From positions 47,041,892 to 47,105,891 of the forward strand of contig NC_081835.1 of the NCBI RefSeq assembly GCF_030867095.1: DNA of 64,000 nucleotides. Reading direction: 5' to 3'. This DNA comes from Alligator mississippiensis. Lineage: Eukaryota; Chordata; Crocodylia; Alligatoridae. This document shows positions 2,255 to 53,900 of the stretch, one piece after another. Every line of letters starts with the position of its first letter. Position 1 is the stretch's first letter. The notes beneath the pieces are model-generated. The model ran no database searches. It worked only from the letters and a program-made list of their open reading frames with translations, and had not been told where the DNA came from. Position numbers and translations under genes: made by a program.

Positions 2255-2936
2255 TAATCTCTAAGCCTTATCTGAGCAGGTGCTTCTTTCCTGCCCTGTT
2301 TGCTTGTTTCACAGTAGTGTTGAAATTAGCCACAGTGACTCTCCAGCATGATGCACAACACTAGCACTGTTAGGTGTGCAAACACCTGCATGATTCACAT
2401 GATAAACCCAGAGATTTCAAATAGGAATCCACAATGTTGAAAACACTTTGACCAGTCAGGGTCTTACTAAGTTGCTCTCTAGTAGTTTTCACTTGCTTTT
2501 TGACTACAGAAAAATAAGCTGGCATTTTCTGAAAGGGACTTTGAGTCTAAAAAACAGAGCCTTATGCTAGAGCAGTGGTTAAGAGACTGGCTAGAAAGAA
2601 TCAAGCACAGTATTTTGGTGAAACAGAACAGCTCTGTATTAACAAAACAAGACTAAATACATAACAGCTCTGAGGGGGAGGGAGAAATAATTGCAGGGTT
2701 GCTCAAATGCTTTCCCAGTGCACAGGACTACAGGACAGCAGCAACACTGGCTTGCGTCTCATGAGTTGGTTGCATCGTTGCTATGGCTTCTAAGATTAGG
2801 TGGCATTTTGGGAGCTAGAAGTCCAGGGCACAGATCAAGGCTACACCCTGCTTAATCCAGTGCCTCTGAGACTTGCTGGTGGGGATCTCCACGGCAATTA
2901 CGTAGTTGGTGGAATGACCTGTTGTTGACAAGGTTC
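2249..2936 (-). CDS. DNAH1: DNAH1 window exon 31: last codons (2815-2936) and 3' UTR
   Basis: Residues 1690-1729: [20 protein letters not shown], then [15 protein letters not shown] and a TAG stop at 2817-2815. Acceptor TTTCCCATCCCAG. The part from 2814 down to about 2249 is 3' UTR. Confidence 0.95.
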
Positions 2937-5900
2937 CTGGGATGGGAAAAAATAAAGATTGTAGGATGAAGATGTACAGATAGTAGAGTCCTATAGCATG
3001 TACAGTGCCTTGTAGACAATCCTGCTGCTACTGCAGTGTCAAGGAGATCTGACTGCTTGTTAGCAATGGTCAATAACCAATGGCTGAAGGAGCTTCCTAT
3101 CTTAGCACTGCCCTTCCCACACTGCATCTTCACCCTGCATTTCTCCTTCCCTGTTCCAGAGCCAGGTTCAGCTGCTAACACTTCTCCAGCAGGCTGGGAG
3201 TTACCAGGTCACTTGCTGACTGGTAACAGAACAAGCAGGAGGATTTTCTTATAGTCCTGTGAACAGGTTCTATGTACATGTTCTGGGGCCTTAAACAGGG
3301 AGGCTTGTGTGTTTTGATCCTAGGTTCAGTCCTTGCGGACAAGTCAACCAGGGGTGTGGTACACAGGGAGGCCATCTGGCCGTGCTGTTAACTAGCTATT
3401 CATGCAACAAGCTGATCTGGGTAGTGGGAAGCACAAGGGAGTAAGTGTGGTGCTCACTAGAGCTGTGTGAAATTTTGGCAGCCGTTTTGTTTTGGAGGTG
3501 TTTCAGGCCATTTTGGTGCCTGAAACGCTGAATCTAAATCGAAACTGAAGGCTCTGAAACAAGTTGGAAGGCTCCGAAACGTTTTGGAAATGTTTCAGAG
3601 CTGGGCTTGCGGGGAAACAAAAACTAAGGGGGGGGGGGGGGGCGGGACTGCGCTGATATTGACATCTAAGCTCCCAGTTTGATTCCCTAGCTCTGACTAT
3701 TTCCCCAGCTCTTCCCAGGGGGTGTGGGCCCCCAGCCTGCAGCAGCAACCTGCTGAAACCTAGCGTGCAGATCCAAGGGCCTGTGCCCCCCAGGAAGAGC
3801 TGGGGTAATTGGACCAAGGGCTGGGCAATCCTTGCCACGAGACCTGGCTCCGCAGGAAGAAGAGGTCCACACCAGGGTCTCCTTGCTGCGGCTGCCCATT
3901 GCTGGGGAAGCGTGGGGTGGGCAGCAGTGACAAGGAGACCCCAACACGGATCTCTGCTCCCTACGGAGCCAAGTCGCACGGCAGGGACCAGCAAGGCTTG
4001 CTCACCACTCTGTGCTGCTTCCCTGTCCCATGACTCAGTGTGACAGGGATCAAAGATCTGCACGGGGGTCTCCTTGCCTGCAAGGAGGGCAATGGTCCTT
4101 CCCAGGAAGAGCCACCTATGGCCCTGGCCCCAAGCCCTTCCTGGCTGGGTAGGGTTGTGTGAAGCTTCCCTTGCACCCTGTTCGAAAAAGATTGGAAGGG
4201 GATTCAGCAGAAATGAAACGGCAGTGATCCAAAACACCAAAACAAATCGCTGTCCTCCGAAACTGAATCAAAATGCAGCCATTTTGCACAGCCCTAGTGC
4301 TCACATATGAAATCTAGTGCAGTGTTACTGTTTAGTGTGAGGCCAGTTATCAAGGTGAGCAACTAATTGCTTGGGTCTTCATAGTTTCATAGTTGGTAGG
4401 GTTAGAAGGGACCTGAGCAGATCATCAAGTCTGACCCCCTGCCATGGGCAGGAAAGAATGCTGGGGTCAAATGACTCCAGCTTGGTGATTATCTAGCCTC
4501 CTTTTTTAAGACCCCCCAGGGTAGGAGCGAGCACCATTTCTCTTGGAAGTTGGTTCCAGATCCTAGCTGCCCTGACAGTGAAGTAGTGCCTCCTGGTGTC
4601 CAACCTGAACCTACTCTCAGCCAATTTATGGCCATTATTCCTAGTTACTCCTGGTAGTGCTCGGGGGAAGAATCTCTCCCATTCCTGCTGATCCCCCTTA
4701 GTAAGTTTATAGACGGCCACCAGATCCCCTCTCAGCCTTCTCTTGTGGAGGCTGAACAGGTTCAGGTCCCGTAGCCTCTCCTCATAGGGTCTGCCCTCCT
4801 GCCACCTGATCATACAAGTGGCCTTCCTCTGGACCCTCTTGATGCTGTCCACATCCCTCCTGAAGTGTAGCACCCAGAACTGGATGCAGTGCTTCAACCG
4901 TGGCCTGACTGATGTCACATACAGGGGGAAGATCACCTCCTTGGACCTGCTCGTGATGCATCTATGGATGCATGACAGGGTGCAGTTAGCCTTACTGACC
5001 ATGTCCTCACATTGGCGGCCCATGTTCATCTTGGAGTCTATAATGACTCTAAGATCCTTTTCTGCTTCTGTGCTGACGAGAAGGGAGTTCCCCAGCCTGT
5101 AGGTATGCTGCTGGTTCTTCCTCCCCAGGTGCAGTACCCTGCGCTTGTCAGTGCTAATCCAATCCTGTTCTTATCCGCCCACCACTGTAACCTGTCCATA
5201 TCTAGTTGTAGCCTGTCCCTCTCTTCTAATGTGCCCACTTCTCCCCACATCTTAGTGTGAGCCGCGGACTTGAACAAAGTGATTTTCACCCCCTCGTCCA
5301 AGTCGCTGGTGAAGATGTTAAACAGTGCGGGCCCGAGCCCTGGGGAACCCCATTGCCCACATGCCTCCAGGTCAAAAATGACCCGTCCACCACCACTCTC
5401 TGGGTGTGGCCCTGTAGCCAATTTGCTGACCATGTAGGTGACTGTGGCGTCAATGCCTAACTTTTTGATGAGAATGGGGTGAGAGACAGTGTCGAAGGCC
5501 TTCCTAAAGTCCAGAAAGACTACGTCCACTGCTACCCCTGCGTCTAAGGATTTTGTGACCTGGTTGTAGAAGGTCACCAGGTTGGTCTGACAGGACCTGC
5601 CTTTAATGAACCCGTGTTGGTTGCTCTAAGCATAATCTCTCCTGCTGGTCCCTCACAGATGTTTTTGGATAATTTTCTCAAAGAGCTTCCCCAGGACCAA
5701 GGTAAGACTAACAGGCCTATAGTTTCCTGGGTCCTCTTTCCTCCCCCTTTTTTGAAAATGGGGACCACGTTGGCCCTTTTCCAGTCCTCTGGCACCTCGC
5801 CAGAGCACCACAAGTGCTCATAGAGCTGTGCCAGGGGTCCCGCGGTGGCCTCTGCCAACTCCCTCAGCACCCTTGGGTGGAGATCATCTGGACCTGCTGA

Positions 5901-38900: not shown

Positions 38901-41900
38901 ACTTCACGTATGGAGAAACTGAAGCAAAGGTATTTAAGTGTCCAAGCCTGACTGCCATCTCAGCTGAAACCCCAAGCTCTTGCTTGCGTCTAAAGTAACC
39001 TATGCTACATTTTACCTTCAATTAGTAAATGCCAACAACAGAGCCCAGTTTAGTTACCTTACCAGCATTACTCCTTAACCACTCCCAGGAGCATGAGAGC
39101 AAGAAGTGACTTCAAAAGAACGCATGGCTATTTCTGCCCATTCATAAAACACTCAACCACAAGAAGTAATAGTCTAATTTGAATGCTTACTGAAACCCTG
39201 GGACAAAAAACAACAGCATTCTAATATTATAAAAGCTTTAGTCTGTCTGTCTGTAACACTTTATTCGGACTGACAGAGACACATGGCAGAACAATGCCAT
39301 GACAGTGGGGACTAAGGGGCCAGAGCAGGGTGGGGGAGCCAGGTCAGCAGAGCTAACATGCCCCCCCCCCAGCCCTGCACCTTAGAGGCAGAGGGGGACA
39401 ACAGGGACTGGAGCACTGCCATGACGGGGGGCAGGGGGCAAAGCCAGTGGCGCTGGCCTCTCTCCCCCTGCCCAGCCGCTTCTTGGAGGCAGCAGGGACG
39501 CGGGGTGCTGGTTGTGCAGCGCTGGCCTCACCCTACCCCACATGGAGGAGCACCGCCATAACAGTGAGGACTGGGGTTGGAGCTGGGAAAACTTGTTCTC
39601 TTCTTTTCTAAACAGTTTCTGGTCTTCCCCTTGTGCCTGGTAATTCTCAGTACATACCTCCCTTAATGGGCTGTAAGTTCCCACTCCCTCACTGGTGCAC
39701 TAGTCACCAAGCATCTCAGTGTGTCATAAGCAGCGCTATAGCTCTTACCCGCTTTGGTTCCACTGCCTTGGCCACAAAATGGTATTTGTGCATGGCACGC
39801 ACCCACTGGCAGATGGATGTGCAAGCTTTGGACACTTTGGCTATAGCTGCTGGTTGAAATTCCTCGCTGTCAATATATGGCTGGATGGCTTTAATCACAG
39901 CATCTGCAATGTTGTCCTGGAAGAAGTGATCAAAATCAAGGTCAAAAGACTAGTACAATTGGAAAGACTAGTTTCCATAGCCAAGAGCATACAAGTGAGT
40001 GCCACAGCTAGCTTCATGTACAGCTTCATGTCCAGCCTTTAGCTAACCAGGTCAAATGAGGATACTCTTCAGAACAAGTTCAGAGCAAAAGTTTTAACTC
40101 ACACCTCTGAAGATGCCTCAGTCACTCTGCCTTGGAAGAAGTAATGGGGAGGAAACAAGAGATGAAGAATGCAAGGCTGAGACAATGAAGGGTTCAGCTC
40201 TGAGATGGTACAAATTCCTGTGGGGATGGAGAGAGCAAAGGGGTGAGAGCACTAGAGATGGTGGGACAGAAGGAGATTGCTGAATGACAGAGGATGTGCT
40301 GTAGGCTCAGCAGTGGGATAGTGCAAGACCCTGCAATTCTGTTGGGAGAGATGACAACAGAGGCTGTTGAACTGAAACGTGAACTCTGTGTCTGTTTGCC
40401 TTCCCTCAGAATGGCTTTGTGGGTGCAGAAATAAAATTTTAGAGTTAAGTGGGGTTTTACTGAACAGGAAAATCTGATTAAAGTAATTGTATCTCTCTGC
40501 TCTTGTGTTTATACTAGCCCTGGCAACAAGGCCTATAAAGGCTATGCTTGCTACCAAATGTCAGCAAATTCAAAGAGGACTAAGCATTTCCCCTAACTTC
40601 AGATATGTTATCATTGACTTCCTTCAACCTCTAAACCCCCTTCCCTGCCAGACCCAGTAAATGATCAAGGCATCCTCTCCTAGTGAATAGGCTTCTGTCA
40701 CTGCTGCTGACTGGACCAGCTCACACAAGACCCATCTGTAGTGAACAGATAGCCACACTCCTGCTAAGCCCCCAAAAAAGCTATAAGATTTCACCTACAA
40801 CAGTTATGGTGGAAGGAATACAAGGCTGTTTGAGTCTGGCTTTTTCATGCATGTAGCCCTGCTTCTACAGTGCCAAGGATCTGGGCTGGCCAGACACATT
40901 TCCATGTTGCTGGTATTTAACAGTAATATGAAATAAATTACTGCAGTGCAGAGAAAGCAGGGCTTCTAGCTCACCTGCTAGTGCATGAACACTTGCTAAA
41001 ACTGTGCAGTCAAGCTTGCTCCAGCCCTGCGTTTGATCTCTAGCAATTTATCGTTGCCCAAAGCAATCAAACTCACCTCAACAATTTAAGAACCAACAAT
41101 GCCCATATACCTTGATACTGTCTTTGCTCTCTTTACAGTGTGAAGCCAAGTTGAAGTTTAGCTCCAAATATTAGTATCAGAAACACTATCATCATAGGAT
41201 CACTATTATCATCCATATATGACATCACTGCCACTTACATTTCATTTTTCCCTCCTGGAGCACACAAAAGAGGCCAGATCTCTGGGCTTCACACTGATGC
41301 ACCATCATCCTCTTTACTTCTGCCACTGCTTACCTTGTCATATTTGAAGAGGCTTTCCAGGAATTTCCCCGGGTCCTGAAGAAGGCCTTTGCCTGGCTCC
41401 CAGTAGTCATCAACCTTGGAGCCTGGCTTATCACCTGCCACTTTCTTGGGCTTGATTCCTTTCATAATACAGACGGCTTCAATCACCATCTTTACACCAA
41501 CAGGAGGACGCTGCATTGCTCGAACCTTAAAAATATACAAGTGAATGTAAGAGGCAGAATAATCACCTTGGCCTTATCCCTGCTCTCCACACAGCATACT
41601 GGCAACTATGGCAGGCCAAAGGACAGTGTTGATGCAATACAGAGGCTGAACTAACTGAACAGAAGTTCTCAACTAGGGTGCTATGATGTAGATACTGCCA
41701 CCCCTGCCACTGCAGCCAAGTAAAACTGCCCCACATGCATGGCTACTGCTTTAGGGGTCTCTGATCAGCTTAAGGCAGGGAAGCTCAACTCTCAGCCTGT
41801 AGGCCAGATCCAGCCCCTGGCTTGTGGGGCTTCTCATGGGCCCCTGGAGAGCCCTATGGGCTGCAGCCTCATGCACTAGATTGGGCAAGCAAAGCAGCTG

Positions 41901-44900
41901 TGGGACCTAACTCTGGCATGCAGGGGCTGGATGGTGGTGGTGCAGAGCCCCAGGGCCCAATCACAGCATGAAGGGGCCAGGTTGGGGTGGTGCAGGGCCC
42001 TAGAGCCTGAATGGACAGGGGTGGTACGAGGCCCCAGAGCCTATCCCAGCGCACAGGGCCAGGTGAAAGTAGTATAGAGCCCTGGGGCCCAATTCCTGTG
42101 AACAGGGGCAGCGCAGGGCCCAATTCAGCCCATGGACTGGCCTTGCCACCATACATGTGACCTGTAGAGCCAAAACCACGAGCAGCGCTGGCCTAAAGCA
42201 GTTAGGAGCTGTCTCGTGCTGTATAGCCTTTCCCAATCCAGCCCCTCCCATGCTCCTCCTAGAAACGGATGTATGCAGGGCAGTTACACCTGCAGGCCTC
42301 TGTTTCGAGGAGGAGCTGGACCCAGAACTGCTACACAGCATCCTGCCTGCCTTAGGCTGATCTAAAGCCTAATGTAGCAGGGGCATGGGCATGTGCCAGA
42401 GTCTTTCCTGGGTTGGCTGTGCAGCAGGTGGGGGATAGTTTTACCCTGGGGGAAGCAACACCCAGTTGAGAAGCATTTAAGTAACCTGAGGCAGCACCAA
42501 CAGTGGTTCTCAACCAGGGATGCCACCACATTCAAAAAGGTAGAGAATGGATGCTGTGACTCTAAAATGGTTGAGAGCCACTGCACTAGAGACTCAGGAC
42601 CTTACATCTGCCTTTGTGCAGATAACCATAAAGCAGGGTCTCTGCTTATGGGGCAGATCATCTGCTCATGCATGCTGAGGAATGTACTTTGCAGAGGTGG
42701 TGATGGTAAGAGAAACAGTATGGAGGGAATAATTCTCCCCACCTGTGTGGAACACCAGTTTGTCAAGCCCAGCTAGTTGGGCTTAGCACAGAAAGGTGTT
42801 AATCCTATATTGCTACAATATTGTCAGAACATATACAAACAGGAATTTCTTATCACACCCTTCCAACCACAGAAGCTGAGTAAATTACCCTAAGCCACAA
42901 CGTCAGTCAGTGGCAGAACTGGGAACCAAACCTAGGGAAATGCCAAGTCCTGTGTTCTGAGTGCCAGAGGCTACACCCCTCATGATATCCTTTAGCTTTG
43001 GATTTCGTAATTCCCTACAGTCAGACGTGGTATCTGTTTGACAGGATTTCTCTGTTTCACTGAAATCACCTATGGTTATTCCTTAAACTATGAAAATTTA
43101 CTGCTTGTGCTCATCTGTATTTAATGTAAAAGAAGATTTGATACCACATATGTGCTTAGGCACTGTGCAAAATAACAATGAGATCACTAATAAAGTGATG
43201 ATATATGGGAATTAGCACCAACTATGCACAGTTAGCACCAAGTTCTTCTATGGAGTCTGATGTGTGTATATTTTCTACCCCTATGTAACTAGAACTCACT
43301 TGGGTTCAGGCTACATTGTCTGTCACAACGCAGTTTGGATTCCCTGCTTTATGCATTTTTCGAGGCTGAGATCACAAGCAATTGATCACAGCAACCTGAC
43401 ACCTGCTGGGAAAATGGCTCACCTGAGCTGCCAGGTGTGGACTCTGATTACGGGGGCAGGAGGAGATTGTGCCCTCCCCTGGCTGCAGGTAGAGAGCAGA
43501 ATTACTGATGATGAGTAAGGATCTACTTAACTGAGCACTTGAGTGCTGTGCTCACTGTTGCTGGCTGTTAGAGACAGTATAGGTGGCTCTGGTAAGTAAT
43601 TCCAGGAACTTGGCTTGATGCTTAAAGAGAGGTGTCTTTCTAGCTTCTTTAGGGCTGAAGATGCCCTGGTAAAGAAAGGCTTAGGTGGTAGCTATGTGAT
43701 TTGCCCTAAATGGAAAATCCCTAGATCCCACAGGGACAGAACAATGTGGCTCAGTCTTTATACCTGAGGCAATGGGTGCTATGGGAGAGGTGGGGTTTTC
43801 TCACTGATCTCCTACATCTTTGGGGGGTCAGGTGTGCCAGATAGGTCTCTTCTGAATCCTAGCATTTAGTCTTTCAGTACTGGAAAAGATGTGGACTGAG
43901 TCCCTGAGCTGCAGTTTGCGTTTGTTGTTCAAGATAGATCTGGTACTCTCTGGTTGCTAGGTGGAAATTTGGGACTGTTGTACCTCTACTTGGGGAATAG
44001 ACTGGAAAGACAAACCACGTATCTGTCTCTTCCAGCATTCACAACTCTCACCATGTTCAACCGGAGACGCTCCAGATGTTTCCTACTGGATACAGTCAAC
44101 AGAGGAGCAGAGTTTGTGGAGACCTTGAAGACTATCTACCCCAAAGCAGACATCCTCCATGAGAAGGACTTTGACTGGCTCTTTGACTGCCCCAAGACAG
44201 AGATGTTCATTGAGTGGTTCTGCAACGCAGTGGGTGAAGAGAATGTACTGAGCCCCACAGAAGTGGCAGCCTATCAGAAGCTGGTCAGCTCAGGGAAGCC
44301 TATTTTGGAAGGCAAAGCCCTAGACCAGGTGCTGCAGACCTGCCACCAATCTCCACAGCTGATAGGCATGATGCCAGAGGAGGAGGGCCCCTCCCTGGAA
44401 GCTCTAAAGCATGAGACCCAAGCATTGCAGAGCTATAATGCTTGCCAGCTCCAACGGCGAAACAAGCTTCAGATCCGTGCAGCTAGCATGAAGCAGGAGC
44501 TGTGCCACTTAGCAGAAGAGGAAGAGAAGGCAGTCTGGAAGCTGAGAAAGGCCCAGCTGGATTTGGAACTGGAGAACTCTCAAACCAACATTGCCTTGAA
44601 CCAGGCCTGCAAGACAGCAAAGCAGCTGGTAGAGTGGCATAGGGAAGCTGGGAAAGGGAGACTGCAGGTGCTGATGTCTGCAGCAGACCTGAGCCACTAC
44701 ATGGAGATAGAAGAACTGGCCACAGGGGCTTTAGAGGGATTCATCCAGAAAGTGCTGCCAGATCTTCATCTAGGAAGTGCAGACATACTGCCAGTGAAGG
44801 GACAAGGTACCTCCCAGGAAAAGGTGGACACTGAGGTCAGGGCAAAGTTGGCCCAGGATGTACTGCCAGAAGATGCAGGGAATGTCAGGGATGAGTATAT

Positions 44901-47900
44901 GAAAGATGCCAAAGTGAACCTAGGAGCACTGGAGGGCCAGGGCAGCTGCCAGGAAGACTTAGTCAGGAGACTGTTAATGTCAAGGCTTACCTGGAAAACC
45001 CTACTAAAAGAGGAGAGATACTTGAAAGCAGAGGCTGGGGGGGTGGAGGCCCTGGATGTTCAAAATAGCTGCCAGGATGCAGTGGAGATGGTCGCAAAAG
45101 CAGACCAAATGATGCTGGAAAAAACGGGGAGCCCTAACACTGTACTCCTGGAAAACCTGGGTAGCCACCAAGAGGAACTGGGACGTCTAAAACTAGTTTA
45201 TATCTGCAGCCAAAGACAGCTGATCACCATCTCGGCAGAAATGGAAGGCATCTATGCTGGCTTGCAGTGGGCAAGGATCCTGAAGACCAAGAAGGAAAAC
45301 TGGGTAGGTCTTGCCTTGTCTGTGTGTCATTGTCACAACTCCTGACTCCTATAGTAGCAGCACCAAGCAAGCTATGGGGAAGCTATTAGTGACCTCTGTT
45401 TTAGGGTATTGGCCAGGATTTGTCCTCAAAGGTTAAGGCCCATTTTGTTACCTGTAAGCAGATGTCTGCCATTTTGTATTCTCTTTTTCAGCCAGTGAAG
45501 GACAAGGAAGAGCTAAGCCTTCACATTGCCACCTGCCAAGAACAGCTGCAAACAATCCACAGTGACATAAATCAGACCCAGGCCAACAAACTCATGCCTC
45601 TGCTTCAGGCTGGTAGCCACTTCTTTTGCTTGCCTATCCTGTCTGGAGAGCTTAATGTGGAAGCTGTTCGCCTTGGGTATATTGCTTCAAGGCAAAAGGA
45701 GGTTGCGGTGCAGCTAATGGACCAGCACAGTCGCTTGGAGCTGCTAGAGCTCCAACTGATGCTGGAGGAGAGACAGTTGCATAAGGTGGGAATGTTATTG
45801 GAGGAGATGGTAGCTACCCTGCAGGAAGACTCGGACAAGCTGCAGGAAAGGCTGGTCTGCTTTGAAGATCCCAGCTTCCAGGTTAACCAGTGTCCACGGA
45901 TACTGTTAGACTCTGGTGATCTTACCACCTTACGGTAAAGATGGCTCTGCCACTGGGCTGGTGACTGGGAGAGGGGTGGAGTTGAATGGAAATAGTTAAG
46001 TCATAAATTAGAGGCTTGAGAAGCTGTCACAAGAAGAAACTAATACAGAGGGAACTTTTGGGTATACGTAATGAAGAAAAGGTAACTCTTCGATTTACCC
46101 TCCCATAATACAAGAGTAAAGACCAGATTCTGGGCAGGGTTAAGCTTCTTCCTAGGTAGATCATTTTGCAAGACTGAGAAGTATCTGCCAGGCTAGCATC
46201 ACTAATACAGGCAACCCCTGCTTAACATGGTTTTAATTAGTGCTATTTCACTATAGCACTCATTTAAAATTGATACCTGATTCCACTGAACACTGTAGTG
46301 AAACTGGCTGAGCACTCAGTGAAATCAGCGAGTTTTGGCAGGAAGGCAGGGAGAAGCAGAGGTGCCGGGGCAGTAAGTGTGCAGTGGGCGTGAGCGTGAG
46401 GTGGGGGAGAAGCCAGGCATGGCTGGTGAACTCAGACTGGTGAGGTGGGGGAGGGGGGGACGGGTTGCAGCTGGCCGGGCACATAGTGGGGGGGCTACAA
46501 ACATCCACCCTGCTCCTGTGGGATGCTCCACCGCCCCACCAGCCTGAGTAGTGGAGATGGTGAAGAGTGTGGGACCTGGGGCCTGCACCCAGGGTGGGGC
46601 AGCAGGAGTGTGGGGCCTGGGGCCAGGGCCAGCAGGGGCCCAGAGCCAGAGCAGTCCAGCAGGAGTGCCGGTACCCAGGCTGGTACGTGGGGTTGGAGTG
46701 GCCGGCAGGTGCGCGGGCAGGTGGGTGGGTGGGGTGAGGCTGTGGTGGTGAGAAGTGGAGAGTGGGGAGGGGATGGGCATCAGTGCAGGGCCTGCGTTGG
46801 TGCCTGGGGCCAGGGCCAGCAGGGGCCCAGGAGTGCAGGCCTGGGCTGGCACATGGGAGTGGAGCAGCCAGCGGGTTAGTGGGGAGAGGCGGCAGCGGGG
46901 AGAAGCAGCGGTAACCAATTGCCTATATTTACATTCATTCCTATGGGCAAATCGATTTTGCTTAGCATGGTTCCGCTAAACACTTGTTTTTTCTGGAACC
47001 AATTAAGAGTGCTAAGCAGGGGTTGCCTGTAGTCTCCTACAGATGCTGTAACTCAGCTGGGTGCATGTTTGGGCCTGAGGAGGAGGATGGACATTCCATG
47101 CTCATTTCTCTCCTGAGGCCACAAGGTATAAAAGGGCACATGTTCGTGCAAACAGGAAGCTTTAGGTCAATGGAACTTCTTTATCAACATAAAAGCTGCT
47201 TCTCTATTCCATTAACATAATGAAAAAATCATAGAAAACTAGGATTGGATGGGATCTCAGGAGGTCCTTTAGTCCAACTCCCTGCACAAAGCAGGACCGT
47301 CCCCAACAAGGTCATCCCAGCCAAAGCTTTGTCTAGCTGGGTCTTAAAAACCTTCAAGGATGAAGGTTCCACAACCTCTCTGTGTAACCTGTTCCAGTGC
47401 TTTACTACCTTCCTAATGAGAAAATTCTTCCTAATATCTAACTACACTTCCCTTGCTGCAACTTGAGACCATTGCTCTTTGTTCTGCTGTTTGGCACCAC
47501 TGAGAACAGTCCAACTCCATCCTCTTTTGAGCCCCCTTTCCATAGTTGAAGGCTGCTATGAAATCCTCTCTGTCTTCTCTTCTCTACACTAAATAAGCCC
47601 AGTTCCCTCAGCTTCTCTTTAGAAGTTATGTGCCCCAGCCCCCTAACCGTTTTTACTACCCTATGCTGGACTCTCTCCAATTGTCCACATTAGGGCTGTG
47701 CAAAACTTCGGTCGCTGATTTGATTTGGAGGAGATTCGTCCAAATTCAGCAGCTGAATCTCCAAGTCCAAATCCAATCAGGAGACCCTTTAATCTCTTCA
47801 AATAGAATTGGAAGCCTCTGAATCTATTCAGAGAGATTCAACGACTTGGCCATAGACCCAGCTTTATTTATAAATATACATAATAAATATATATATATAA

Positions 47901-50900
47901 GTTGGGTCTATGGCCAAGTCATTGAATATTTATTTATTTATTTATTTATTCCTACGTACCTCAAGGCACCAGGCATGGCTCATGAGCGTTGAGATGAAGC
48001 ATCCCATGGAAGCAAGGTGGGGGTCCCCCCCACATGCTTGGCGGTAAACCCAGAAGCGGACCAGAAGTATGTCTGGTCCACTTTCAGGTTCGCCGCCAAG
48101 CACACGGGGCACCTCCCCACACACCCGTGGGATGCTCCATCTGCCCCACCTTCTCAGTGCTTACGAGCTGTGCCTGGTACCTTGAGGTACATGGGGGGGG
48201 GGAAAAAAAACATACAAAGCTGTCTATGGCCAAATTGCTGATTCTCTGAGTCAGAACTGAATCTTCAGATTTGCCTGAATCAAATCAGGACAGCGATCCA
48301 AATCAGCGAATCTAATCACTGTCCCTCAAATTGGGCTGAATCCAAATCGAATACAGCCCACTTCACATACCTCTGGTCCACATCCTTTCTTTAGTAGAGG
48401 GCCCAAAACTGGACACAGTACTCCAGATGTGGCCTCAACTGTGCTGAATAGAGGGGAATAATCACTAGGCCTGTGTGAAGCAGAAAGTATTTGCTTTGGA
48501 TTCGGCGATTTGGAGGGACAGTGATTCGATTCGGTGATTCAAATCGCTGTCCTGATTTGATTTGGCTTAATCTGAGTGTATTCGGTGCCAAATCTTATTT
48601 GGCCATAGACTACAGAGGCAGGCAGTCCTGGCAGAAGCAGCTGGGGAAGCAGCTAGATGAGCCCCGGCTTGAGCCAGCAGACCCGGGAGAAACTGCGGCT
48701 CATCTGGCTGCTCCCCGGACAAGGCAGGCAGTGCTGGCAACGCTGGGAGAAGCCACAGGGCCTGGAGGAAATGATCGGGGAGCTGGGGACTCGAACTGGG
48801 AGCGGGCGGAAGCCGCTGTTCACTCCCCCAGCTCCCCAATCATTCCCTGCAGACCCTGTGGCTTCTCCCAGGGCTGCCAGCACTGCCTGCTTCGCCCCAG
48901 CGGTGGGGGCAGCCGGAGGAGCAGCTGGATGAGCTCCAGCTTGAGCCAGCAGCCCTAGGAGAAGCCATGGGAGCTGAGGGAAATGTTTGGGGAGCTGGGG
49001 GAGTGAACAGGGGCTTCCCTCCAGCTCCCGGTTTGATTCCCCCAGCTCCCCAATCATTCCCCCTCAACCCCCATGGCTTCTCTTGGGGCTGCCAGCACTG
49101 CCTGCCTTACCCTGGGGGGGGCAGCCAGACAAGCTGTGGCTTATCTTGGGGCTGCTGGCTCAAGCCGGGGCTCGTTCAGCTGTTCCCTCAGCTGCTCCCA
49201 CCGGCTCTGCCTAGTGCCTGTCTGTACAGCCTATGGCCGAATCTCTCTCTGAACCGATTCAGAGGCTTCCGATTTGATTCGGAGAGATTAATGGGTCTCC
49301 CAATTTGATTTGGATGCCGAATTGGGCCAAATCAGCTACTGAAGTTTTGCACAGCCCTTGACCTGCTGGCAACACTCCTACCAATGCAGCCCAGTATGTC
49401 GTTAGCTGCCTTTGCAACAAGGGTGGTATACTGCTGGCTCATATTTAGCTTTATTGTCCTCTTTACCACCACCACCCCCCCCCATGTCCTTTTCTGCAGA
49501 GCTGCTGCCCAGCCAATCAGCCCCTAGCCTGTACCAGTGCATGGGACTGTTCTATCCTAAGTGCAGGACTTTGCACTTGTACTTTTTGAACTGCATGAGA
49601 TTTCTTTTGGCCCAATCCACCAATGACTGACAATTATGGGACTTCTTAAGCCTTCCAATGAAACACCAGTTTCTGGCCACTGTCACTGATGTGATATTGG
49701 ACTTGGAGAGTCCATTTCAGTCTGACAGCTCTTAAACATGGGTAATTTGCCTTGATGGCCATACCTTCTGCAACCCTCAGTATGACATGGCACACCCCCT
49801 TCCACAGACAGAGGAATGTGTAGGCAGCTCACCTGGAGCTGTAGTCCCCTCTGTGGAAATTCAGGCAGACAGTACTGCATCTGTTCATGTTCCCAACTCA
49901 ACTATTACAACCAGTCTCACTTCAAGTGAAAGCTTACATTCTGAAAAACCAAAGGCCATGGTAATGTGGTGGCACCAACTCAGACCAGTGGCAGCTGCCC
50001 TCCCTGTTCTCATTGGCTTTCCCCTCTTTCAGGCTCTGGGAGATGCTGGAGAAGTATGGTCATGAAAGGCGACTTTTCCTCACCTATGAGACACTGGCAG
50101 GCCGGGGCTCACGCCTGTGTCAGGAAGCAAGGATGCTAGAAGTACAGCTGGCAGTGCCGCCATCCAAGCTACCCACACTAGAATATGAGAACACAGTGCT
50201 ATATGGGATGATGTACAGTGATTTCAACCAACTACAGCTTAACTCCCAGGTGAGCAGAGACCTTGACTCTTCCCATGTCTCTCTCTCCCCTGTAGGTAGG
50301 TCTATGGTCTTGACAGGCAATCAAATGTGAAGAATCTTTCTACTGATGCTGTTTTACTTTTCTTGTAGAATTCTCATTGGGCACTAGAGGTTCCCAATAG
50401 GATGGTAATAGAATGATAGAAAATTAGGGTTGGAAGGGATCTCAGGAGATCATGTAGTCCAACCCCCTGCTCAAAGCAGGACCATCCCCAACAAGATCAT
50501 CCCAGCTAAAGCTTTGTCTAGCTGGGTTTTGAAAACCTCCAAGGACAGAGTTTTCACCACCCCTCTGGGTAACCTGTTCCAGTGTTTTACTACCTTTCTA
50601 GTGAAAGAACTCTTCTTGTTATCTAACTTTAAACTTCCCTTGCTGTAACTTGAGACTGTTGCTCCTTGTTGTCATCTGCCACCACTGAGAACAGCCTAGC
50701 TCCATCCTCCTTTGAACCCCCCTTCAGGTAGTTAAAGGCTGCTATTAAATCCCCTCTCGGTCTTCTTCTCTAAAATAAATATGAGGAAAGACCGAGGGAA
50801 CTGGGCTTAAGTCATGTCCCTCGGCCCACTCACCATTTCTGTTGCCCTCTGCCGGAGTCCCTCCAATTTCTTCACATTCTTCTGTAGTGGGGTGCCCAAA

Positions 50901-53900
50901 ACTGAACACAGTACTCCAGATGTGATGGATTATCACATCTGGATTCTAATTCTCCACCTGATGGATTATCCCAGGAAGCACAGATTTGGGCAGGGAACAT
51001 TCTTTTCCCTTCTCTTTCTACAGTTTTGCAGCATGTTTCCCATCTTCCTGCAGGAGCTATCTGAACTTAAGGAGCAGCTCAGTACCTCAGAGGCCAAACT
51101 CTATCAGATGCTGATGGACCTCCTGAATGACCTGAGGGCCAAGCGCAAGTCCCTGAGGACCCATTTCCAACAGACAGAGCGTGACCTCTATGTGCACTTC
51201 TTCAGCAATGCTAACCACCTGCAGGAGGTGGTGCAAGAGCTAGAGAAGCAAGCTCTGTCCTTCTCCTAAGGATATGTAATAGGGCAGGTCAAGGTGGCTT
51301 TCATTGTTTGCCCATCATGTGGCCTTTTGTTTCCAAGGGAAGGAAACACTGGTGATTCCAGGTGCCATGGTGGGCTATAGTGGTTTTGTTTTGATCCTGT
51401 AATTGGGAGGCCTTGCAGAGAAATGCCACATCCCCCATTACAGGGTGAAGGGAGTGCACTCTGTGGTAAAAGGAAGGGGATTATACTTGTATTTCTCTGC
51501 CCCAGGCCAGCAAGAGGTGTTTTGTTTTGTTTTTTTTGGGGGGGGAACAGGGACTCGTTTGGGGATAGCATGGGTGGGGCTCTGATGGAGGGGTAAAATT
51601 AAAGACATGGTATTTTTCTATTTGGAATGTTCACCCATGATTACAGAGTTGACGTGTGTGTTCACCCTTCCTGCTTGCATTTGTCCGTCTTGTGTTGCGT
51701 GACCCTTTCTACTCTAAACCCAGTGCTGCAAAGGGAAGATGAAGCGGAGCGCTTGAAGCAGTGGAAGTGGCATATTATCTCTTTGGTCTGTTGGACACCA
51801 GCCAAGGTTGTCTTCTCTGGGACGCCTTCCCATAACTTTTCCATGCTGAAAATGGTGGTTTAGCTCATAGCTATCTTAGCTACAGACAAGCTGGCATGGT
51901 ACAACTAAGCGCTGGTGAAATCAAGAACATCCTCTCTCTTCCTTGGTCTTCAGTTCACAGTTGACCCATTGAAGTCAGTTAAACTACACTTTTTTTCACT
52001 TCCTCCCTTGTCTACATAGGGGTCTAGTGTTAAGCAGAGCAGCCAAAGTGTCAAGCCTACAGTTCAACTGAAATAGTGTTATGTCTTCTCTGGGGAGAGA
52101 TGGTTTATCTCAAAGAACACTGACCTGCCACTGATCCTCAAACCCTGTTCTGATGGGACAATTACACCATCTCGTTCAGAGCAGGTGGCTGAAAGTCGGT
52201 TACAGTTACACTCCAAGCTCTAGTGACAACTCTGATCTACCTTCATGGACCATTAGAGACATATGCTGACTAGAAGGTAAGATGACTGTGATCAAAGATC
52301 TCCTTCCTAGATTTATACTTAACTAGTCTAGTAAATGGCACAATACCAATCCCCTGCTGTCCCTGATGATCTAAGGCAACCTATTGCTGTGTGACAGCAG
52401 TTTATTCCTTGTCTTGAGTGTAGGGTCAAGCTGCTGCCAGTCTAGTGGTGACTGGAATGTGGATGCCTGGCTAGTTCCTAAGGTCTCTAAATATATCATG
52501 TCACTTTACACACATCATCAAAATGCCTTCAACTGGTACACATTTCTCTGATCATGCCCTCCCCATGCTGGCTTTGAAACCGTGACTTTACTGTGGAAGC
52601 TCAGAAGACCACTGCTGTTCCCTTGGCTCATCTGGTTTAATTAAACTGATTCACTTTTAATTAGTAAACATTACTGTAAAGCACTTGACTTTGCAGCAAA
52701 GCAAGACACTACACCAAGATAATTAAGTTGTTTTAAAGGGATAGGAATTTTGACTGCTAGAGCTCTCTCATGAGTTCAGAAGAAACAAACAAAAAAAAAA
52801 GCAATGGAAGGAAACAGCTAGGTGGGCTTTATAGACTCCTCTGCTGGTTACCTTTGCATCCATGCTGCCGTTTCACTATAACCCCTTGTCTAATGGCACC
52901 CTTGTTACAATAATGCATCAGAGAAGGCAGCACAAAAAATCCTTTCCCCTGAACAGGACTGACTACTTTATTACCTCTGTGACATCATTTTTGTTGAGAT
53001 TTCTTAAGCTGGCTAGAGCAGCATCCAGTGCAGGGAGGGCTTCAGCAAGGTCCTTCTGAGCATCATCTGCAATAGCTTGGGCTGTCTCAGCTTTCACTTT
53101 GGCTTTCATCTCCTCAGCCTGCACAGCATTGCGAGTCTCTTCAGCCACAGCTGTGTCTACCTGCAGCACCAGAAACAATCTCAGAACTAAGTTTTTCAAA
53201 AGATCTGATCCAAAGTACCAGTTTGGGTTGGCCCAGACACTTGTCTGGATGATGCTCAACCCATGACCAACCATTTCCCATCAGAAAGTCTGTCTCACTG
53301 AGGCTGTATCAAATCTGCATAGCATATCAAAGATTCTCTCCCACTGCCAGCACTGTAGACTTGCACTGAAATTGGGCTATTAAGAGAGAATCTCTCCCCA
53401 AAAACAGTGCACTGGTTGCAGTACAGATTATCCAGCATGAATTTATTTCACTGATCTGTCAAGGGATGAGCCAGAGTAGTAAACAAAGGAGCAAACTATG
53501 ATAAATACTCAAACTGCAGTATTTGAGTGCAGTACAGTGAGTGAATATGTCTTAGAATGCTCATAAACAGAACTGAGTAACAAGCTTTTTTAACAGTTGC
53601 CTTGCTGACTACACCTATGCTCCATGACAACTTCAGATTTGCACTGTCTGAGGGGAAAATCTAACTAAGGCAGGGCTTTTATTACAAGTAGATTAATTCA
53701 CCTCCAGAAAGGAAGAGGTGTGCAAAAAATAAAAAGACTGCATTTCTTCTCAATTATCTCACAGGCTCACAGTAACTCTCCAGTGGTGTGCAGATTCTGG
53801 CAGCTTTTTACAAGCAGTCATCAAGTTTTGCACTCTTACCTAGCATATCCTTCTAGGTTTAGTCATCTTACAATAGGCAAAACGGGCAACAGACACTTGA

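Follow-up and report, generated by a model that had tools for sequence, protein, structure and literature searches.

The window analyzed here is a stretch of 64,000 nucleotides of the Alligator mississippiensis genome (contig NC_081835.1, positions 47,041,892 to 47,105,891), in which positions are counted from the first letter. It contains a HAUS3-like gene on the plus strand, situated within an intron of the DNAH1 gene on the minus strand. HAUS3 belongs to the machinery for branching of spindle microtubules, and DNAH1 is a motor gene of the cilium and sperm tail. The HAUS3-like gene has four coding exons (44053-51269) which upon splicing give an unbroken protein of 708 residues, with GT/AG sites at all three coding introns. 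Coding exon 1 (44036-45303) consists of 17 bases of 5' untranslated region (44036-44052) and 417 codons of coding sequence (44053-45303). It is followed by exon 2 (45492-45934; 443 nucleotides, entered in phase 0 and left in phase 2), exon 3 (50033-50249; 217 nucleotides) and the final exon 4 (51054-51269), which carries the stop codon. An ATTAAA at 51598-51603 on the same strand is a possible polyadenylation signal by motif match alone. Since exon 1 begins directly after an acceptor-like polypyrimidine-AG, TCTGTCTCTTCCAG, which ends at 44035 and leaves 17 bases before the ATG, there is probably a noncoding first exon upstream of 44036. The large second intron of the gene is repeat-like and locally GC-rich between 46450 and 49500, with TA and TATT microsatellites.

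The DNAH1 intron that holds this gene runs from 41526 to 52974 on the minus strand and is 11,449 bases long. It interrupts the region that codes for the stalk and was defined by its splice sites and the identity of the adjacent exons, of which the upstream one covers at least 52975-53160 and the downstream one at least 41334-41525. The splice sites are exactly at 52975/52974 and 41526/41525. The peptide obtained by joining the flanking exons matched DNAH1 of structures 8i3j, 9fqr, 9d2f and 8j07 with E-values of 2.7e-68 to 7.8e-66, the next dynein following at 8e-34, and corresponds to DNAH1 residues of about 2876-3001 in 8j07. The original prediction of a HAUS3-like gene lying antisense within this DNAH1 intron is thus confirmed by the splice sites, the exon matches and the opposite strands. 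The intact four-exon homolog of 708 residues that it proposed was also recovered, both by splicing and by the profile and structure matches described below. Its description as a complete gene holds for the coding exons, the 5' noncoding exon and the promoter not having been located.

The translated protein matched the Pfam family HAUS-augmin3 (PF14932) over profile positions 1-259 of 260 with an E-value of 4.2e-51 and a score of 174.4 bits, at a cut-off of 29.4. Other Pfam matches were weak, such as NleF_casp_inhib at 0.0022; they fell below cut-off and were taken as chance matches of a coiled coil. Among solved protein chains, three distinct sequences were matched up to an E-value of 0.1 and all were HAUS3 or AUG3: human HAUS3 (7sqk, 1.5e-72), Xenopus HAUS3 (8at2, 5.4e-65) and plant AUG3 (1.2e-6). 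Homology includes the C-terminal half, where residues 368-704 aligned to 254-594 of 7sqk chain C with 130 bits. Overall identity to human HAUS3 was 34% (188/550). The strong resemblance to the human protein that had been proposed for both ends was found for the N-terminal ca. 90 residues (52/88, 59%), whereas the C-terminal part is only moderately similar (52/156, 33%).

The alligator assembly itself was searched for other copies (2.35 billion bases in 195 contigs), with only the best candidates being scored so that a very diverged third copy could escape. Searching with PF14932 gave two places, the window and C2:19638117-19638878 on another contig. The 708-residue protein as query returned seven exon matches, four of which are the exons of the window gene and three belong to the C2 gene. 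The latter encodes an intact protein of 603 residues which matches PF14932 with 2.7e-89. Over the 558 positions of a partial sequence, 352 are the same as in human HAUS3 (63% identity). Three of the six genomic DNA_pol_A matches lie downstream of it on the same strand (C2:19.45-19.51 Mb), and from family and position these exons are probably POLN. According to a passage of PMC4591814, HAUS3 immediately precedes POLN in zebrafish, mouse and human and has its first exon in common with it, and in human a CpG island is present as well. The window gene is not at POLN and so lacks the standard vertebrate placement of HAUS3, being situated in DNAH1. This identifies the C2 gene as standard HAUS3 and the copy in the window as its paralog. 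This agrees with the diverged paralog suggested in the original prediction, and its reservation that the window gene might be a relocated sole HAUS3 of the lineage does not hold in view of the separate standard gene on another contig.

Of 589 aligned residues, 207 (35%) are identical in the two proteins. All three coding introns occur at the same places and in the same phases (0, 2, 0) in both genes; exon 2 has 443 nucleotides in each, and exon 3 of the window gene compares with 229 nucleotides in the standard gene. Because the introns are common to both genes, retroposition is excluded and the window gene is a DNA duplicate that includes its introns.

The coding sequence of the paralog has neither a stop nor a frameshift in its 708 codons. 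In simulations that let the standard coding sequence decay neutrally, by substitutions only, down to the protein identity of the paralog, at least 13 in-frame stops accumulated in 100 of 100 runs, with a mean of 23. The differences between the two copies are distributed unevenly over the codon positions (319, 231 and 413 of 589 aligned codons at positions 1, 2 and 3; chi-square p 2e-25), a bias that neutral decay would level out. This uneven pattern together with the open frame indicates that selection has acted on the protein over its history, though not necessarily today. Among 227 sites that are identical in the standard crocodilian, human and Xenopus proteins, 123 are kept in the paralog; for comparison, the paralog matches the majority at 68 of 220 two-state sites.

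The divergence is spread unequally along the protein. Relative to the standard alligator protein, the N-terminal bundle (standard residues 1-93) is 51% identical in the paralog (47/92) and 55% in Xenopus HAUS3 (49/89), and for residues 94-197 these values are 33% and 45%. At residues 311-434 identity drops to 24% (30/124) in the paralog where Xenopus has 56% (70/124), while the C-terminal residues 435-603 are at 39% (62/161) and 52% (83/161), respectively. In the alignment, codons 234-367 of the paralog (44752-45153, plus strand) form a long segment opposite which standard HAUS3 has just a short one. In this insert and its edge a short motif occurs four times in degenerate form (44791-45174, plus strand; codons 247, 292, 333 and 365) at spacings of 45, 41 and 32 residues, with a score that was reached by none of 500 shuffles. 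Three of the four copies can be recognized at the DNA level too, where they are repeats 135 and 123 nucleotides apart. According to sections of PMC9512787, HAUS3 and HAUS5 pair over nearly their full length, with their N-termini forming a small bundle, their C-termini a four-subunit 4H-arm and the middle the H3/H5 arm, the periphery of which is bound by the C-clamp of T-II. As published models put the middle of HAUS3 in the H3/H5 arm, the changed part of the paralog would lie in or near the arm on which T-II docks, a placement made by matching residue ranges and not from a model. At its N-terminus, the paralog is extended by about 14 residues relative to the standard protein (44053-44094), and these residues include a basic MFNRRRSR without counterpart in standard HAUS3.

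Synonymous sites of the two copies are near saturation, which favors an old duplication. In codons that specify an identical amino acid in both copies, 23 of 70 fourfold sites are alike as compared to 23% expected at saturation (P 0.04 for exceeding it), and for 91 twofold sites the values are 47% observed and 46% expected. An excerpt of PMC7116210 gives a crocodilian fourfold rate of 0.00129 per site per million years (My), at which the point estimate of the age is ca. 610 My and the lower bound ca. 380 My; if the mammal rate of that source is used instead, the 95% lower bound is 249 My. This clock may be off because the GC content at third codon positions (GC3) differs widely between the copies (0.615 and 0.334).

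Phylogenetic analysis was done with four taxa (three topologies, 539 columns; LG+G4, JTT+G4 and LG+C20+G4) and with Arabidopsis added (five topologies, 327 columns; LG+G4 and LG+C20+G4). The best four-taxon tree joined the standard crocodilian copy to the human protein and left the paralog outside amniote standard HAUS3, with a bootstrap value of 47%. The approximately unbiased (AU) test rejected none of the four-taxon topologies; the grouping of the paralog with the crocodilian standard copy had p values of 0.127, 0.094 and 0.479 under the three models. Among the four-taxon measures, only the bootstrap proportion from resampled log-likelihoods (bp-RELL) dropped a tree, namely that same grouping under JTT (0.033). 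With Arabidopsis and LG+G4 the best tree had the paralog outside all vertebrate HAUS3 (AU 0.79), and the tree joining it to Xenopus was the only one below 0.05 (AU 0.042). The LG+C20+G4 mixture model was flat in both sets. The branch of the paralog is very long, 1.38 against 0.20 for the standard copy. Identities in the N-terminal bundle, from which nothing was concluded, were 52/88 to human, 46/88 to the crocodilian standard and 40/88 to Xenopus. These trees give no firm date. In view of the near-saturated synonymous sites, we regard it as likely that the duplication predates the crocodilians, and an origin before the amniotes as slightly more likely than not.

A CpG-rich stretch is present at C2:19640901-19642500, about 2 kb upstream of the standard start codon, with a GC content up to 0.73 and an observed/expected ratio up to 0.93. 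In the 64-kb window no CpG island was found, no 500-base stretch (step 50) passing a GC content of 0.55 with a ratio of 0.55. The missing island fits a restricted expression of the paralog and names no tissue. It is the sole hint toward the shared testis expression and germline role that the original prediction raised, and the germline role is a guess.

Of the partner subunits, HAUS1, HAUS4 and HAUS6 each gave one locus in the genome search, and HAUS5 gave one locus and, in addition, a truncated copy of its 3' end that is of recent origin. A matching HAUS5 paralog had been considered for these two places, which are 18.5 kb apart, and was rejected when self-comparison of 40 kb showed a recent tandem copy of the 3' end alone. 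The 3' end and adjoining DNA are found in tandem at C15:27350238-27353231 and 27368755-27371909, with main blocks of 83-96% DNA identity; the second copy is without the upstream HAUS5 exons, and the repetition reflects either a segmental duplication of recent date or a feature of the assembly. Elsewhere in the assembly, a region of ca. 95 kb (C1:482602677-482697307) holds nine of the 14 genomic globin-family matches, two of them with a stop inside the matched stretch. This beta-like cluster is larger than expected and includes two near-identical exon copies of the 8wix type. Structure 8WIX is alligator hemoglobin, as indicated in a portion of PMC11294572. A beta-globin exon translated from the assembly matched 8wix over 76 residues (1.7e-49, the next chain following at 4.2e-33) with two differences, of which one is at the edge of the exon and the inner one is absent from another genomic copy. 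This supports a crocodilian and probably alligator genome. A different beta-like exon was most similar to beta chains of bird hemoglobins, led by 1faw and 1a4f, which was attributed to the lack of a crocodilian structure for that type of globin.

The reading that we favor, with moderate confidence, is that the old DNA duplicate of HAUS3 encodes an alternative T-III subunit of augmin with an altered arm and a restricted use. An old DNA duplication, introns included, would have yielded a second protein-coding HAUS3 that now lies antisense in the DNAH1 intron. Its product would pair with HAUS5 and join HAUS1 and HAUS4, giving an alternative T-III half of augmin; this role is suggested by the regions responsible for those contacts, the N-terminal bundle and the C-terminal part, being the best conserved. 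The diverged and enlarged arm would alter docking of the T-II half, so that branching is tuned or altered. Because the CpG-island promoter of the standard copy is lacking at the paralog, it may be active in certain cells only, perhaps germ cells. Several points weigh against this scheme. The divergence of the arm could mean that the augmin function was lost, and the codon-position test spans the whole history of the gene and not present-day selection. No old HAUS5 paralog was found in the genome search, so the same HAUS5 would have to serve both the standard complex and an alternative one. The structure prediction for exon 1 had a mean predicted local distance difference test score (pLDDT) of 40, which is too poor to give structural support, and the paralog is known here from the sequence of one genome.

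The first of these points leads to a serious alternative, which we consider possible though rather doubtful, namely that the paralog is functional outside augmin as a coiled-coil body with another job, for example as a scaffold, either of the centrosome or specific to sperm, or by titrating HAUS5 as a decoy. The loss of identity at residues 311-434 where Xenopus HAUS3 remains similar, the repeat-built insert and the very long branch would all agree with a departure from the complex, but the sites that are invariant among the three standard proteins were preferentially retained, and conservation is better in the N-terminal bundle and in the C-terminal part. Strong divergence would also be expected of a decaying pseudogene or a retrocopy. 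The retained introns, the open frame of 708 codons and the stops that appeared in every neutral simulation make this explanation very improbable. That the window gene is the sole, relocated HAUS3 of the lineage or an assembly artifact can hardly be maintained, given the separate intact standard gene upstream of the probable POLN on another contig and a difference between the copies at 65% of aligned residues, which is not that of a duplicated assembly stretch.

The age of the duplicate bears on another explanation, that it arose recently in the crocodilian or archosaur lineage and evolved very fast, instead of being an old paralog that was lost elsewhere. At the crocodilian fourfold rate, the probability of 23 or fewer of the 70 sites being alike is 4e-5 if the duplicate is 245 My old and 0.004 if it is 319 My old. 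However, an age of 245 My fits at a rate of 0.003 per site per My (P 0.45), the GC3 gap may have sped up third-position change, the bound at a mammal-like rate is 249 My, and grouping with the crocodilian standard copy was rejected by AU under none of the three models. Parsimony sites of the quartet favor the standard crocodilian copy with human (13 sites, against 4 and 5), a pattern that long branches can also yield. On balance we regard a young duplicate as unlikely.

If the paralog makes a working subunit, some vertebrates would possess an alternative version of augmin, and its diverged arm would offer a natural way of testing which surfaces of HAUS3 are used in the docking of T-II. A wider and quite tentative idea, which we would not expect to hold, is that vertebrate ancestors had two HAUS3 genes, of which reptiles such as crocodilians kept the DNAH1 copy for a second, germ-cell augmin with an altered arm and mammals lost it. 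Augmin is usually viewed as one fixed eight-part complex; with such an ancestry it would have cell-type-specific versions. No paper on a HAUS3 paralog of this kind was found in title listings and the openings of abstracts from the open-license literature, and automatic crocodilian annotation may already list the gene.

Compared with its known relatives, the paralog resembles standard HAUS3 in matching the family profile over its full length, in the similarity of both ends to the human and Xenopus proteins, and in the places and phases of its introns and the length of exon 2. It differs from standard HAUS3 in its 35% identity, its length (708 versus 603 residues), the N-terminal extension of about 14 residues and the repeat-built insert, as well as in its location inside DNAH1 rather than at POLN and the absence of a visible CpG island. 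HAUS5, which is termed a paralog of HAUS3 in part of PMC10102177, is a long coiled coil of the same type and the pairing partner of HAUS3, but it was absent from the three Pfam matches of the window protein up to an E-value of 1, the HAUS3 profile being matched instead. The same source names Dgt3 as the HAUS3 homolog. Insect Dgt3 and plant AUG3, to which the window protein is weakly similar (1.2e-6 for AUG3), are the HAUS3 counterparts of their own lineages, whereas the alligator gene in the DNAH1 intron is a second copy that exists beside the standard one.

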